36,226 nt of DNA from Selenomonadaceae bacterium (GTDB taxonomy: Bacteria > Bacillota > Negativicutes > Selenomonadales > Selenomonadaceae), in contig JAFZIV010000013.1 of the NCBI GenBank assembly GCA_017554235.1, forward strand, positions 1 through 36,226, in the 5' to 3' direction. Under the pieces are notes generated by a model. The model saw only the letters and a list, made by a program, of their open reading frames with translations, had not been told where the DNA came from and did not search any database. Both the position numbers and the translations under genes were made by a program. Positions 8,894-25,647 of the stretch are shown piece by piece. The first letter of the stretch is position 1, and each line of letters starts with the position of its first letter.

Positions 8894-9061
8894 CCCCAAA
8901 CATTGACAAAAATATACCTAGTGTCTAAAATGTCCCTATCAGCGAGAACCAAGCTGAATAAAAAAGTTTTAATACCGGTGGCTCGCCGGGAATTCACGAC
9001 TGTGGAAGTGTTACAGCAAACGTTAGTAGGTAAGCCGAGAACGGACACGATGAAGCAGTAA
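8894..9061 (+). pseudogene. 3' remnant of an IS200/IS605-type tnpB
   Basis: From the in-frame stop at 8891-8893 an open frame runs to the TAA at 9059-9061. The last part reads VARREFTTVEVLQQTL and ends TDTMKQ. The REFTxVE...MKQ(E) ending is a hallmark of the C-terminus of many TnpB proteins. The zinc-finger and RuvC-like catalytic parts are missing, and no start or upstream frame can be joined. The stop is followed at once by two hairpins, as at intact element right ends. This is an old, internally deleted copy that cannot make active TnpB. Confidence 0.6.
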
Positions 9062-20565: not shown

Positions 20566-21317
20566 CTTCATCTGAAGACAAACTTCAAAAATCAGCTGAT
20601 GAAAATTCTAATGACGAGCAAATTGATGATGGTTCAATGCCGCTGACTTCGCATTTGGAAGAGTTACGTTCGCGAATCATAAAAAGTTTGTTTGCTATTG
20701 TCGCCGGCAGTTGTATTTCGTATTTTTTCCTTGACGAGATAACAAAATTTTTAACTGCACCTGTCGGCAAGCTTTACTATATGCAACCGGGCGAAGCTTT
20801 TTTCACGTATCTTAAAATTGACATTGTCACGGGATTTTTGATTGCCCTGCCAATAATTTTTTTTCACATATGGCAATTTTTTCTGCCCGCGCTTACGAAG
20901 TCTGAACGCGCCGTATTGGGAATACTCGTTCCGTCATCGGTAATTTTATTTTTCGCGGGATTGGCATTTTCATTTTTCCTGTTAATGCCAGTAGCGTTGA
21001 AATTTTTTATGGGATTTAGCACGGACGATTTGCAGACAATGTTTTCGTTCCAAAATTATTTTGACTTCGTGATAATGTTTTCATTACCGTTCGGTTTCGT
21101 GTTTGAGTTGCCGCTCGTGATAATCGTGCTTGGCAAGTTGGGAGTTTTGACCAGCCAATTTTTAGGAAAGTACCGCCGAATAATTTTTTTCCTGTCCTTC
21201 ATAATCGGCGCACTTGTCACAACGCCTGACGTTATCACGCAAATTGCCGTAGCTATTCCCGTGATGATGTTGTATGAAGTCGGCTACCTCGTTGTCAAAT
21301 ATGTTTTGAAAAAATAA
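20562..21317 (+). CDS. tatC: Twin-arginine translocase subunit TatC
   Basis: A 251-aa inner-membrane protein with six predicted helices. It is the receptor for twin-arginine signal peptides. The family marks are SHLEELRSRI before TM1, the FTYLKIDIVTG stretch (the usual Glu is in PGEAFF) and FGFVFELPLVII. The acidic N-terminal 25 residues are longer than usual. It overlaps tatA by 4 bp; there is no tatB, so this is a minimal TatAC system. A new promoter lies immediately downstream. Confidence 0.95.
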   Translation: MTSSEDKLQKSADENSNDEQIDDGSMPLTSHLEELRSRIIKSLFAIVAGSCISYFFLDEITKFLTAPVGKLYYMQPGEAFFTYLKIDIVTGFLIALPIIFFHIWQFFLPALTKSERAVLGILVPSSVILFFAGLAFSFFLLMPVALKFFMGFSTDDLQTMFSFQNYFDFVIMFSLPFGFVFELPLVIIVLGKLGVLTSQFLGKYRRIIFFLSFIIGALVTTPDVITQIAVAIPVMMLYEVGYLVVKYVLKK

Positions 21318-21318
21318 C

Positions 21319-21347
21319 TTGACAGCAATGTAAAATTTTTGTAGGAT
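21319..21347 (+). promoter_or_regulatory. Promoter of the hairpin leader
   Basis: Perfect TTGACA (21319-21324), 17-bp spacer, TAGGAT (21342-21347). It starts 2 bp after the tatC stop codon. Transcription would begin near 21354 and run through the hairpin array. Confidence 0.6.
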
Positions 21348-21377
21348 AGCCGCGTTATAATCTTGATTGAAATTGTT

Positions 21378-21628
21378 AGGCAACGAGAGTTCCTGTTATC
21401 TCGGCGCGGGAGCGTCGCTACAGTTGGCGTTTAAACGCTGACTGATTATCCTAGTACTCTCTGCCTTAATCTGTCGGCATAAAAAGTTCCTGTTTAATTC
21501 AATTTGAAAATGTTTTACTTTTCGCCGACAATAAATAACGGCATAGAAAGTTCCTGTTTGTTTTTACCATTTTTTACTTTCCGCCGTTCTCAAAGAATAT
21601 AGTGGCGGTTGGGCTGGGCTCAATCGCC
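21378..21628 (+). ncRNA. Structured leader RNA candidate: three matching hairpins plus a fourth
   Basis: Three hairpins share one plan. The lower stem ends GGC/GCC, an internal loop has three bases 5' and one base 3', a 6-bp upper stem ends AGT/ACT, and the apical loop begins TCCTGTT. Hairpin 1 spans 21378-21466 (AGGC/GCCT, GAGAGT/ACTCTC). Hairpin 2 spans 21472-21530 (TGTCGGC/GCCGACA, AAAAGT/ACTTTT). Hairpin 3 spans 21537-21588 (AACGGC/GCCGTT, GAAAGT/ACTTTC). Stem bases differ but stay paired. A fourth hairpin (21604-21611 with 21621-21628) has a different design and sits 29 bp before the next ATG. No terminator follows, so it is more likely a leader than a free RNA. I know no family for it. 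Confidence 0.6.
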
Positions 21629-21657
21629 TTTAAAGTTTACGGGAAGAAGGGATATTT

Positions 21658-23568
21658 ATGAAAAATTTTATTAAAGCCGTCATCACTCTTTTTAAATCTG
21701 TGCCGACCGTGCAAAATATTTCCGACGTGAAATTTTCTAATGAAGAGAATGTCACGAAAGGATTTTTCATAACGGAATCTGCTTTCAAGTCGTGTCCGAT
21801 TGACAAAGAAATTTTGAAGTTCATCGAAGAAAAATTCGGATACAATATTCTTGAACTTAATCAAGGCTTTTATAAATCTTTTAAGACCGTTACTGAACTT
21901 ACTCCGCAAAAAATTCTTGCCAATAAACTTTTGCATTACATGTCAACTTACGGATTTGAGAATTTAGGAATTTTCGATCAAGAGACAGTTTTCATTCCAA
22001 ATGACGTACTTGAACTTCCCGCCGATTCTAAGCCCATAAAATTGACGATTATAAATTCAATCGGCAACATATCAATTTTTTCTCGCGTAGAAAAAATGAT
22101 TATGTCAGGTATTGCGCTTTCAGATGAGACGCTGGAAAATCTTACGACGATTATAAAATATCTCAATCTGAAATTTGACATTGACGCCGTGCCGAATAAA
22201 GAGTTAAGAATACGTCTTTATGACTTGCTGAATATCCTGCCGAAAAATCCCGCCGAATTTCTGCGCTATATGATTTACAAGGCTATCGACTCAACTTTGC
22301 TGATAAAATCCCCTGAAACGATTGGGGGCGTAAAAAATTCTTCTTTTGACTGTGATAAATTTTTTACAGATTATATTGCGGCTAACGGGCTTGAAAAGCT
22401 TGCAGAAATTTTTCATCGATACAAGCCGTTATGGTTGGCGTTTAAGCAACATTCAAAATTTATGAAGTCGACCGTCAACAAAATGCGTAAACTTGCCGAT
22501 AAGTATCACAAGCCCTTGACGCCGAAAATTTTGGATACAGTGACTTCGAGTCAAAAAATTAATGTCGACGAACTTAAACGCGAGCTTGAAAAAGTTCCCG
22601 TCTTCAAAAGGATTTCGCTTGCCAATGCCATACTTTTTAGATCTGCCGCGCCTGAAAGTATCGCGTATATGATTCGCAACGGAAAAGTTTTCGTTGAAGA
22701 ATACGATAAAAAATTTAAGCTGAACTATCAAACTTTGTTGACGATTGTTGAATCGATTGTGGAAGTTGTCCGCCCCAATGTTGAGGGTAGAAAAATTTAT
22801 TTGCCGGAAAATTTGATATATGCCGCGCCGATTAGTGAGAAAAAATTTATTGGCGAAATTCCTTTTGGCTCGGCTTATACTTTCGACAGTCAATCTGTTA
22901 TCGTCGGTGTTCATTGGTTCAATCTTCCTACGGAGCGCGTTGATTTGGACTTGCATTTAAATTCGACTAAACGCAGTATTGGCTGGTATAATGACTTTAA
23001 TAACAAAAATTTTATTGATACTAAAAATGAAACCATAATTTTTTCCGGCGATATGACGGACGCGCCGATTGATAAGGGCGGAGCGACGGAAGCTTATTTT
23101 GTCGGCGAATCGCTGAAAGATGAAATGCTGATGGTTAATCTGAATCGCTATACGTATCACGAAGAAACTATTCCGTACAAGCTGATTCTTGGCCATGTAG
23201 AAGACGGCAAGATTGACAGAAAATATTTGATTGATTCGCACGAAATTGCTTTTTGTCTGCCGAATAAAATTGAAAGCGGCGAAATGTTCATAGGATTTTT
23301 GAACAGCGATGAAAATGGCAACAAAAAATTTTATTTTACGGCGGCGGAAACCAGCAGAAGGATTGTTGCGCGGCGTGATGAAAATGCTTTGCGTACAATT
23401 TCGGCGTTGCAAACTTCTTTGGAGTCCTGCTTGAAGTTGAAAGATATTTTGAAGGACGCAGGCGCAATTTTTGAAAAAGATAACGACGAAGAATGGGATA
23501 TTAACCTTGACCCGCAAGTTATCACGAAAGATACAATTTTGAATTTGTTTGCGAAAGTGAGTGATTAA
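21658..23568 (+). CDS. Large two-part protein with a TerD-like C-terminal region
   Basis: A 636-aa protein without signal peptide or membrane helix. Residues 1-400 are mainly helical (for example LANKLLHYMSTYGFENLGI and a long run of helix pairs), like an alpha-solenoid. Residues about 408-560 look TerD-like: VGVHWFNLPTERVDLDLHL, then IFSGDMTDAPIDKGGATEAY. That wording resembles the C-terminal part of large actinobacterial and myxobacterial Ter-associated proteins. TerD domains bind calcium and belong to stress and conflict systems. A ribosome-binding site (AGAAGGGA) lies 8 nt before the ATG. It is the first gene after the hairpin leader, and its end overlaps the next start. The family call is tentative. 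Confidence 0.5.
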   Translation: MKNFIKAVITLFKSVPTVQNISDVKFSNEENVTKGFFITESAFKSCPIDKEILKFIEEKFGYNILELNQGFYKSFKTVTELTPQKILANKLLHYMSTYGFENLGIFDQETVFIPNDVLELPADSKPIKLTIINSIGNISIFSRVEKMIMSGIALSDETLENLTTIIKYLNLKFDIDAVPNKELRIRLYDLLNILPKNPAEFLRYMIYKAIDSTLLIKSPETIGGVKNSSFDCDKFFTDYIAANGLEKLAEIFHRYKPLWLAFKQHSKFMKSTVNKMRKLADKYHKPLTPKILDTVTSSQKINVDELKRELEKVPVFKRISLANAILFRSAAPESIAYMIRNGKVFVEEYDKKFKLNYQTLLTIVESIVEVVRPNVEGRKIYLPENLIYAAPISEKKFIGEIPFGSAYTFDSQSVIVGVHWFNLPTERVDLDLHLNSTKRSIGWYNDFNNKNFIDTKNETIIFSGDMTDAPIDKGGATEAYFVGESLKDEMLMVNLNRYTYHEETIPYKLILGHVEDGKIDRKYLIDSHEIAFCLPNKIESGEMFIGFLNSDENGNKKFYFTAAETSRRIVARRDENALRTISALQTSLESCLKLKDILKDAGAIFEKDNDEEWDINLDPQVITKDTILNLFAKVSD

Positions 23569-23785
23569 ATTGACTAACGAAGAAAAAATTATCTCTATGC
23601 TGGAAAGTTTGCAAAAAGAAGTTGCAGATTTAAAAGCCGAAATTAAAGAATCGCGCTATAAAAAATCTATGCGCGAAGAAACTCAAGATGAGTACATTGC
23701 TCGTCAGCTCACGGCACTTGAGGGAATGCGTAGCGTTTTGACGAAGGAAGAAGCGGATAAACTCGCGGAGATTGTGGGGATTTAG
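23561..23785 (+). CDS. Small antitoxin-like protein upstream of vapC
   Basis: A 74-aa acidic and basic helical protein. Residues 5-35 form a likely coiled coil (EKIISMLESLQKEVADLKAE), and the C-terminal half is also helical. I see no AbrB, RHH or Phd motif, so the antitoxin call rests on position, size and coupling. The GTG start overlaps the preceding gene by 8 bp (a TTG at 23570 is possible). The stop is 1 bp from the vapC ATG. Such a partner would bind and block the PIN toxin and repress its own promoter. Confidence 0.65.
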   Translation: MIKLTNEEKIISMLESLQKEVADLKAEIKESRYKKSMREETQDEYIARQLTALEGMRSVLTKEEADKLAEIVGI

Positions 23786-23786
23786 C

Positions 23787-24182
23787 ATGAAATATCTTTT
23801 GGACAGTAGCGCGGTTATTGACCTTATTCGCGGCAACGAAAAAGTTCTGAACGAATATAATCGCAAATTAATTGAGAGGAATAAATTTTTCATTTGCCCG
23901 ATTATTTATTATGAAGTTATGCGCGGCTTTAAAGTTTTAAATGGCGGAAAACGCATTGAAACATTTTTAAAATTTTATCAGATGTGGGATAATCTCCAAA
24001 TGGAAGATAGCGCAATGATGAAAGCCGCCGAAATTTACGTTAAACTTCGTAAAGGGCAGACAGTGGAGGATAACGATATTTTCATCGCGGCTGTTGCTAT
24101 TGTCAATGATTGTACGCTGATAACTGCCAATGAAAAACATTTTTCGCGAATCGACGAATTGAAATTTGAAAATTGGCGGTGA
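23787..24182 (+). CDS. vapC: VapC-type PIN-domain ribonuclease toxin
   Basis: A 131-aa protein, typical of VapC. The PIN acidic residues are in place: Asp6 in YLLDSSAVIDL, Glu in YYEVMRG, Asp in VEDNDIFIAA. ITANEKHFSRI is the usual Thr-x-Asn...HF end. VapC toxins cut specific RNAs, often tRNAs, using magnesium. The ATG at 23787 is preferred (GTGGGGA 6 nt upstream). It is unusual that the pair is embedded in a longer operon, with the TerD-like gene before and ubiD 7 bp after. Confidence 0.87.
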   Translation: MKYLLDSSAVIDLIRGNEKVLNEYNRKLIERNKFFICPIIYYEVMRGFKVLNGGKRIETFLKFYQMWDNLQMEDSAMMKAAEIYVKLRKGQTVEDNDIFIAAVAIVNDCTLITANEKHFSRIDELKFENWR

Positions 24183-24189
24183 AAAATTT

Positions 24190-25647
24190 TTGGCATATAA
24201 AGATTTACGAGAATTTATTGCGGAACTTGAAAGCAGAGGATTGCTTAAACGCATAAAAGTTCCTGTTGACGCCGAATTAGAAATTACGGAAATTACCGAT
24301 CGTGTTTCAAAATTTCGTGACGGGCGTAATGTCGCATTACTATTTGAAAATGTACGCGGTTATGACATACCGGTTTTAACGAATATGTTTGGAAGTTACG
24401 AGCGAATGTCATTGGCTCTCGGCGTTGATAAACTTGACGATGCGGCAAACGATATACGCGAACTTTTGAAGTTGCCTTATATTTCGCTGAAAAATCGTAT
24501 GAGTATCGTTTCAATCGTCTCAACCGGCAGTAAAGTTATTAATTTCCCCAAGTATGTAAAAAATGCTCCATGTCAAGAAATTGTAGAAGAAAATCCTGAT
24601 TTAAATAAAATTCCTATTTTAAAATGTTGGCCTCAAGACGGCGGAAATTTTATAACGTTGCCGCTTGTCTTTACAAAAAATCCGCGTACAGGAAAACGTA
24701 ACGTCGGTATGTATCGCTTGCAAAAATATGATTCCACTACAACGGGTATGCATTGGCACATTCATAAAAACGGCGCGGAAAATTTCAGGGACGCGCAGGT
24801 TGACGGGCAAAATAAAATTGAAGTTGCCGTCGCAATAGGTACAGACCCAGTTGTAACTTATGCCGCAACTGCTCCGCTTCCTCGTGACGTTGACGAAATG
24901 GTTTTTGCAGGATTCTTACGCCATAAATCTGTTGAGTTGACAAAGTGCAAAACTGTTGACCTTGAAGTACCTGCTACCGCCGAATTTATTTTAGAAGGCT
25001 ACGTTTTGACTGACGAATTTAGACGCGAAGGACCTTTCGGCGACCATACGGGATATTATTCTTTGGCTGACGATTATCCCGTTTTTCACGTAACTTGCAT
25101 AACTCACAGAAAAAATCCTATTTACGCGGCAACAATCGTTGGTAAGCCGCCTATGGAAGATTGTTACATGGCGAAGGCTACGGAAAGAATTTTTTTACCG
25201 CTGTTGCAACAAATTATTCCTGAAATTATTGATATAAATATGCCGCTTGAAGGCGTCTTTCACGATTGCATAATTGTTTCCATAAAAAAAAGTTACCCCA
25301 TGCAAGCGCGAAAGGTTATGCACGCTTTATGGGGTATGGGACAAATGATGAACGTCAAGATGATTATTGTTGTTGACGCTCATGTAAACGTACAGGATTT
25401 AAGCGAAGTTGCTTGGAGAGTTTTTAATAACATTGACGCGGATCACGACTTAGAAATTGTTCATGGACCTCTTGACGTACTCGACCACTCATCGCCTATG
25501 GCAAAGTGGGGAGCTAAACTCGGCATTGACGCTACAAAAACTTGGAAGGAAGAAGGACATCTGCGCGATTGGCCCGATGAAATTTCTATGACGCCTGAAG
25601 TTAAAGACCGAATAAATTTTATTTGGAAGTCGCTCGGATTGGAATAA
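24190..25647 (+). CDS. UbiD-family decarboxylase
   Basis: A 485-aa enzyme from the TTG at 24190, the usual UbiD length. An upstream in-frame TTG (24166) lies inside vapC. UbiD enzymes use prenylated FMN to remove or add CO2 on aromatic or unsaturated acids. Here it may act in menaquinone synthesis, or on phenolic acids. REGPFGDHTGYYS, the active-site Glu/Arg block, is intact. KNPRTGKRNVGMYRLQ and GKPPMEDCYMAKATER are family signatures. No ubiX partner (prFMN maker) is in view. A strong terminator follows. Being in one operon with vapBC is unusual. Confidence 0.88.
   Translation: MAYKDLREFIAELESRGLLKRIKVPVDAELEITEITDRVSKFRDGRNVALLFENVRGYDIPVLTNMFGSYERMSLALGVDKLDDAANDIRELLKLPYISLKNRMSIVSIVSTGSKVINFPKYVKNAPCQEIVEENPDLNKIPILKCWPQDGGNFITLPLVFTKNPRTGKRNVGMYRLQKYDSTTTGMHWHIHKNGAENFRDAQVDGQNKIEVAVAIGTDPVVTYAATAPLPRDVDEMVFAGFLRHKSVELTKCKTVDLEVPATAEFILEGYVLTDEFRREGPFGDHTGYYSLADDYPVFHVTCITHRKNPIYAATIVGKPPMEDCYMAKATERIFLPLLQQIIPEIIDINMPLEGVFHDCIIVSIKKSYPMQARKVMHALWGMGQMMNVKMIIVVDAHVNVQDLSEVAWRVFNNIDADHDLEIVHGPLDVLDHSSPMAKWGAKLGIDATKTWKEEGHLRDWPDEISMTPEVKDRINFIWKSLGLE

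Follow-up and report, generated by a model that had tools for sequence, protein, structure and literature searches.

Three successive hairpins on a contig of a Selenomonadaceae bacterium (JAFZIV010000013.1, positions 1 to 36,226; this whole stretch of 36,226 nucleotides is referred to below as the window) belong to an apparently undescribed RNA family and are probably copies of a dedicated noncoding RNA partner of the adjoining TerD-family protein, with which they would form a ribonucleoprotein particle similar to Ro60/Y RNA, but with a different protein. The existence of a new structured RNA, proposed as a candidate in the earlier note, is strongly supported by the lack of an Rfam match, by covariation and by retention beside one protein family in both bacteria and phages.

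Structure and conservation of the hairpins

Direct reading of the sequence located the three hairpins of one architecture described in the earlier note, all on the forward strand: AGGC-AAC-GAGAGT ... ACTCTC-T-GCCT (hairpin 1, positions 21378-21466), TGTCGGC-ATA-AAAAGT ... ACTTTT-C-GCCGACA (hairpin 2, 21472-21530) and AACGGC-ATA-GAAAGT ... ACTTTC-C-GCCGTT (hairpin 3, 21537-21588). Each includes a basal stem, a 3x1 internal loop, a 6-bp stem and an apical loop opening with UCCU, and in all three this loop starts with TCCTGTT in the DNA. The apical module of hairpin 1 is long and made of two sub-hairpins. Folded one at a time with a few flanking bases and compared with dinucleotide shuffles, hairpins 1, 2 and 3 gave z-scores of -3.34, -4.26 and -3.96, respectively; the z-score for the folding energy of the whole leader was -2.40. 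Hairpin 1 was matched by the covariance model R1 (E 1.1e-8), and hairpins 2 and 3 by the model R2 (E 1.6e-13 and 5.4e-13), but the three hairpins are training rows of the models, and independent support therefore comes from the hairpins of relatives. Hairpin 1 is absent from several lists of model matches (R1 on the public loci, R2 runs), perhaps owing to its long two-hairpin loop. The genome carries five occurrences of the motif AAGTTCCTGTTT, two of which are those of hairpins 2 and 3; the other three lie outside the three hairpin-model matches of the genome and appear coding-like by eye.

The hairpins are preceded by the promoter-like sequence TTGACA-17-TAGGAT (21319-21347, forward strand), matching the consensus at 10 of 12 positions, which would start the hairpin transcript. 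The stop codon of tatC ends at 21317, and the -35 box previously placed two bases behind this gene is indeed present, although a single base separates it from the stop codon. A separate stem-loop between hairpin 3 and the start codon (21604-21628, forward strand; z -4.88) is a possible terminator or attenuator with a poor U tract; it was not scored as a terminator in the promoter and terminator scans. It is followed on the same strand by a Shine-Dalgarno-like GAAGGG, read from the sequence (21646-21651), and by the gene of the partner protein of 636 aa (21658-23568).

In A2, an alignment of 22 hairpins based on sequence, 91.9% of the cells are paired, 8 of the 13 pairs are changed on both sides, and the covariation score is 0.308, versus 0.166 for shuffles and at most 0.112 for slid versions. 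The hairpins of A2 were chosen by a pattern requiring AGTTCC and a 3' AC..GC part, so that the constancy of these bases arises partly by construction; later model matches carry CU or CA where A2 has GU. A larger set of 63 hairpins, including viral ones, has 92.9% of cells paired, double changes in all 13 pairs and a covariation score of 0.514, versus 0.181 for shuffles, none of 500 of which attains it, and no more than 0.152 for slid structures. The rows of this set were aligned to fit the structure, a bias in the structure's favour, and the sequence-only A2 agrees with it. Alignments A4 and A7 are likewise structure-fitted and contain chosen loci from 36 and 46 sources, near-duplicates (e.g., L033, L115, L116, L121) and the eight loci without a cis match being omitted; two Ruminococcus rows are omitted from A6. 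The most constant parts are the three-base internal loop facing one pyrimidine and the UCCU that opens the apical loop. A degenerate middle hairpin was observed in L086 (1555-1640), where AGUUACUU replaces AGUUCCU and the flanking hairpins are both intact.

No Rfam family was found on the leader at the gathering score, and two matches obtained there at E up to 5 were both at chance level; scans of 11 related loci gave nothing on the hairpins beyond chance level. The comparison with Rfam, which the earlier note had named as a way to disprove the novelty of the RNA, thus leaves it standing. The sole Rfam match of the whole window is a RAGATH-18 RNA at 8999-9061 on the forward strand (61.4 bits, E 5.4e-10). 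In searches of the open-access literature, none of the papers listed describes the hairpin RNA or pairs a TerD protein with an RNA of this kind, and no paper found there combines two of the terms SCO0854, MXAN_6230, TerD domain and Y RNA.

Association with the gene of a TerD-fold protein

The partner protein of 636 aa comprises a helical N-terminal region (about 1-380) and a C-terminal domain (about 400-584) with the TerD fold. The family model NF041916 (MXAN_6230/SCO0854 family RING/TerD) weakly matches 15 of 22 aligned homologues, with the best E-value of 3.2e-19; the window protein matches it at 0.0056 over the TerD part, scoring 14.9 bits where the curated cut-off is 600. We know of no function or RNA partner for the MXAN_6230/SCO0854 family. 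Compared with the TerD proteins of tellurite resistance and stress response, the window protein carries in addition a large, unassigned helical region at its N-terminus, and no ter gene was found among the window proteins scanned. The best match in a sequence search of the PDB had an E-value of 0.29, and Foldseek listed no structure at E ≤ 0.001, whether the query was the entire protein or its N-terminal part; Ro and ToxN were not listed, which excludes neither. The homologues from the Ruminococcus loci L060 and L061 have a longer N-terminus (an ORF of 758 aa in L060) and share the stretch HYMSTYG.

Protein matches were found in 14 of 60 sampled relatives, the genome of the window included, all of one genus. 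Reading of the sequences upstream of the orthologues revealed one to three hairpin copies. The model R1 was run on the window and on all 41 public loci encoding a relative of the 636-aa protein, and in 33 of the 41 a hairpin was present upstream on the coding strand (E ≤ 5.1e-5). The hairpins beside orthologous genes, whose absence would have spoken against the earlier claim, are thus widespread. The names of the public records (Quinella, Selenomonadaceae) suggest Quinella-like rumen bacteria; the positive loci also include Anaerovibrio (L050 and, from Anaerovibrio sp. JC8, L053), Selenomonas ruminantium (L051), a Clostridia genome (L054), an Erysipelotrichaceae genome (L055) and Bacteroidales (L056, L058). 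In Clostridia, Erysipelotrichaceae and Bacteroidales, the linkage extends to proteins of 28-34% identity.

The position of the hairpins in these loci is consistent with a cis-acting leader, in which the protein or another factor would bind hairpins in its own mRNA and control termination or translation, with nothing acting in trans. Promoter-like and terminator-like sequences were counted in 36 cis loci, namely, the window, 31 of the 33 cellular cis loci (L021 and L033, with hairpins at the contig edge, were left out) and four viral loci; expected counts were taken from mononucleotide shuffles, and some gene starts were inferred. A promoter-like match of at least 10 of 12 positions within 130 nt 5' of the first hairpin was present in 22 of the 36 loci, versus 1.8 expected, and a terminator-like hairpin between the hairpin and the gene in 7 of the 36, versus 0.9 expected, one of the seven overlapping the ribosome-binding site. 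A general terminator behind the RNA was considered and dropped, since the criterion holds in these seven loci only. Despite the leader position in 33 of 41 loci, the promoter-like sites and the excess of terminator-like hairpins, a purely cis-acting leader is rather unlikely, as copies occur far from the gene in genomes that retain the protein, behind the gene and within tRNA arrays, and the tRNA-like loops of some copies have no obvious use in a leader.

RNA and protein also co-occur among 60 genomes of the genus. The RNA was found at E ≤ 1e-6 in 27 of the 28 genomes with the protein and in none of the 32 without it, so that all 27 genomes with the RNA at this threshold encode the protein; the 60 genomes are related and these co-occurrences are not independent events. 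At E ≤ 0.01, 30 of the 60 genomes have a match, among them two genomes without the protein, G070 (9.7e-6; coding-like by eye) and G016 (0.0026). The protein-bearing genome G080 contains an RNA match at 0.004 only, together with a protein fragment. Beyond the genus, R2 matched the genome of the window alone among 299 genomes of the phylum, a weak negative result, as only 16 candidates per genome were scored, and the protein was found in 1 of 198 Bacteroidales genomes, namely, the centre genome itself. The distribution is sparse, and the system is probably mobile.

A riboswitch sensing a metabolite or ion ahead of a stress gene would agree with the leader position and with the conserved apical and internal loops. 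In the loci read, however, the gene behind the hairpins nearly always belongs to one protein family, the exception L082 resembling an old locus, and tandem copies and tRNA arrays fit such a sensor poorly; we regard a riboswitch as very improbable.

Neighbours of the cellular copies vary, as seen from 20 proteins, chosen genes only, scanned in nine other loci. In the window, the region 23772-25647 (forward strand) encodes a PIN-domain protein (PF01850, 3.6e-15), followed by UbiD; neither was among the 20 neighbours scanned in the nine other loci. Of the operon TerD/vapBC/ubiD, which the hairpins had been supposed to lead, the TerD-family gene is the conserved partner; the neighbours scanned in those loci are different, and the operon reading is supported only in part.

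Copies away from the gene and in phages

Eight of the 41 protein loci have no cis match (L025, L039, L044, L048, L049, L059, L060, L061). In the genome G012 (L039), hairpins lie on contig C28 between genes read as pfkA and a HIT-family gene, while the protein is encoded on contig C30 with another gene directly upstream. The model R2 was run on 14 genomes, seven without a cis match and seven more, and 11 of them had a match at E ≤ 0.05. RNA was found elsewhere in G360 (L044), G361 (L048), G369 (L059) and G373 (L049); L048 also holds a weak degenerate upstream copy (E 0.11), and in L049 the gene start is near the contig end. In G369, the RNA and the protein gene are on one contig, 79 kb apart, which is stronger evidence than the location on different contigs of draft assemblies in G012, G064/G361 (one assembly) and G360. 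In the genomes of 3 of the 41 protein loci, R2 found no RNA: those of L060 and L061 (G370 and G371, with divergent Ruminococcus homologues) and that of the truncated L025 (G372).

Since some genomes carry the RNA at a distance from the gene, it is more than a cis leader, and this freedom of position is the main reason for preferring a putative function in trans. By reading, T-rich or terminator-like sequence follows the stand-alone copies L101 and L103. The copy of L082 precedes a HIT-family gene, and the upstream end of pfkA is the same as in protein-bearing loci (by reading); L082 looks like a former protein locus.

Copies remote from the gene also bear on the loop sequence, for which two explanations had been offered: several identical protein sites, or three UUCCU segments pairing with GGGAA near the ribosome-binding site. 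UUCCU is kept in copies on other contigs, 79 kb away, behind the gene and in tRNA arrays, which does not agree with such pairing. Pairing of UUCCU with CAGGGG of the downstream stem-loop is feasible in many Quinella loci, but was rejected too, CAGGGG being missing, by reading, from the window, L007 and L018. The preferred and plausible reading is that the hairpins represent several identical putative protein sites.

Tandem RNA modules ahead of a single gene also resemble type III toxin-antitoxin systems, in which the modules would neutralise the protein, an RNA-acting toxin. One to three copies preceding one gene, a promoter-like site, in some loci an intervening terminator-like hairpin, the patchy distribution and the presence in phages are in agreement with this. 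On the other hand, a TerD domain with a helical domain does not look like the small ToxN-like RNase fold, and the size of the protein differs from that of known type III toxins; PADLOC gave no match for the window protein, and 1 of 22 homologues weakly matched PglX. An antitoxin would be expected upstream in cis, which holds for 33 of 41 loci, whereas the RNA lies elsewhere, 79 kb or a contig away, in G012, G064/G361, G360 and G369. Neither tRNA-mimic loops nor a location in tRNA arrays is known from type III antitoxins. A system of this type is therefore improbable; like the cis-acting leader, it is strained by copies lying far from or behind the gene.

Homologues of the protein, 29-33% identical, are encoded on ten viral contigs, and R2 found hairpins near the homologue in nine of them; no hairpin was found nearby in L119. 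The R2 matches of L114-L116 are identical, as are those of L120 and L121. Three of the four hairpins listed for L122 fall within an array of 19 tRNA genes or at its end, and in L123 one hairpin lies between the genes of tRNA-Met and tRNA-Leu; no tRNA gene was present in the stretch in six of the eight viral loci scanned. Scans of chosen viral neighbour genes, 10 with PHROGs and 20 with Pfam, revealed a metallophosphatase-kinase and an amidase/endolysin (L116), an HD-kinase (L120) and the tRNA-His guanylyltransferase Thg1 (L122), and a CCA-adding enzyme is annotated among the phage neighbours. As far as seen, genes for RNA-end processing were confined to some of the phage loci. Two more sites, 6692-6780 in L122 and about 6710-6780 in L120, have hairpins that follow the family design with long and quite different basal stems and were not listed by R2.

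Homologues of the L123 protein were found in five of 50,697 phage records, representing three distinct phages, namely, Synechococcus phages S-CRM01 and S-CBWM1 and gut phage Phass-1, all three of which contain hairpin matches (E ≤ 2.1e-4) within 3 kb of the gene. S-CRM01 has four hairpins, three directly upstream of g174 and one directly behind it; S-CBWM1 has one, within a tRNA cluster 2.5 kb upstream of the gene; Phass-1 has four, 1.2-1.7 kb behind the gene. The stretches of interest beside g174 are at about 132343-132568 and 134424-134482 of the S-CRM01 record. In S-CRM01 and S-CBWM1, the homologue and the hairpins are located amid tRNA genes. Copies behind the gene are present in L120, L122, S-CRM01 and Phass-1.

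The position of some phage copies between tRNA genes could indicate a decoy or processing element of tRNA gene clusters, mechanistically unrelated to the protein. This is highly improbable, since ARAGORN detected no tRNA gene in seven cellular loci, and yet every genus genome with a confident RNA match encodes the protein.

Apical modules and comparison with Y RNA particles

A few apical loops contain tRNA-like modules. The T-arm GCGGG-TTCGANT-CCCGC is present in the apical loops of L027 and L086. The second hairpin of L054 has the T-arm GTTGG-TTCGAAT-CCAAC ahead of an 8-bp stem whose loop consists of three bases. In L123, the apical loop permits a reading as a circularly permuted tRNA, with GCCUG/CAGGC as the top of the anticodon stem, the T-arm AGAGG-UUCGAAU-CCUCU, an acceptor stem that contains one mismatch and is capped by UGAUA, and the D-arm GUCU-AAUGGUUA-AGAC; this fold has an energy of -29.8 kcal/mol, versus -32.6 for the unconstrained minimum, which is a different fold. 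Resemblance to the D-, T- and acceptor arms was thus noted by reading in L123 and partly in L054, and to the T-arm alone in L027 and L086. A script detected the T-arm in 2 of 49 apical loops, and two more were recognised by reading or by a site scan; in most apical loops, those of the window included, no T-arm was seen. T-arm-like sites are rare, with 19 in 753,870 bases on both strands (L027 and L054 counted in), and still only a minority of the hairpins has one. The best Rfam match in the L123 copy was a chance-level tmRNA fragment (E 0.31), and no Y RNA family was matched; a permuted order of tRNA parts is not expected to match the tRNA model.

A constant handle, a variable head, a dedicated protein and the frequent tRNA setting in phages correspond to the plan of bacterial Y RNAs, for which reason a particle of the TerD-family protein and the RNA that handles tRNAs is proposed. 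The protein-binding handle would be formed by the constant elements (basal stem, AAA/C internal loop, 6-bp stem and UUCCU), and the variable apical part would be the effector or substrate-like end, in few copies a T-arm or a circularly permuted tRNA. In the window, the promoter at 21319 would give a transcript with three such handles ahead of the mRNA of the partner. We infer that the RNA is transcribed, processed, bound by the protein and functional in trans, with a role in tRNA metabolism; the particle may act in tRNA or RNA quality control, repair or protection under stress or phage infection. Among the observations that run counter to this reading, most cellular copies have the leader position expected of a cis regulator, and the hairpins of S-CBWM1 and Phass-1 are 1.2-2.5 kb from the gene.

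In the excerpts of the sources consulted, the basal stem of bacterial YrlA holds Rsr and its tRNA-like domain reaches a nuclease (PMC8394870), and bacterial Y RNA operons are tied to tRNA damage (PMC7790460). Judging from the same partial texts and from part of PMC12282133, the hairpin RNA shares with the YrlA/Ro60/Rsr system a small size, a closing stem that is putatively protein-binding, an apical end that may in a few copies mimic tRNA arms, a gene adjoining that of the partner, occurrence in phages and RNA-repair genes nearby. Part of the last source describes an Rsr-like protein of Listeria phage CKA15 near three very abundant RNAs, which its authors suggest as possible Y RNAs (PMC12282133).

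The differences concern both components. The hairpin RNA has no Rfam match, often occurs in several copies per locus, combines a 3x1 internal loop with the UUCCU handle, and bears a tRNA module in few copies; its partner is of the TerD family, without a detectable TROVE domain and with a TerD domain instead of vWA. Sequence and profile scans gave no TROVE match for the 636-aa protein, and profile comparison with four TROVE proteins by hhalign gave a probability of 0.2%. The region 313-382 aligns by eye with the end of TROVE, but this candidate was discarded, being supported neither by hhalign and HMMER nor by column shuffles, 33 of 60 of which scored as high. TROVE was found in none of 60 genomes of the class, the genome of the window included, and in 6 of 249 genomes of the phylum. 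By the tests made (Y RNA models and TROVE), which compare sequences and profiles, the hairpin RNA falls outside the Y RNA family; the system is set apart from the nearest known particle because neither its RNA (Rfam) nor its protein (TROVE tests) belongs to Y RNA/Ro60.

More tentatively, and with somewhat less than even confidence, the system can be regarded as a second, Ro-independent Y-RNA-like particle, consisting of a TerD protein and interchangeable RNA modules, each with a constant protein handle and a changeable, sometimes tRNA-like head; it would be part of the tRNA kit of tRNA-rich phages, shared with gut bacteria, and may sense, shield or help to repair cleaved tRNAs. If so, a TerD stress protein gains an RNA partner and a molecular role, and the way of working of Ro and Y RNA (protein, RNA handle and tRNA-like head) arose with another protein. 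TerD proteins are described in stress and phage-resistance loci, with nucleotide-like ligands proposed and the ligand unsettled, in the portions consulted of PMC7824862 and PMC7159879; this question becomes testable through a conserved putative RNA partner that shows some tRNA mimicry.

Unannotated stretches beside the tRNA genes of phages such as S-CRM01 and S-CBWM1 would likewise gain a role through the RNA family. At 6710-6856 of L124 (minus strand), the annotated hypothetical gene SCRM01_173c overlaps hairpin matches on the other strand and may not be a real gene.
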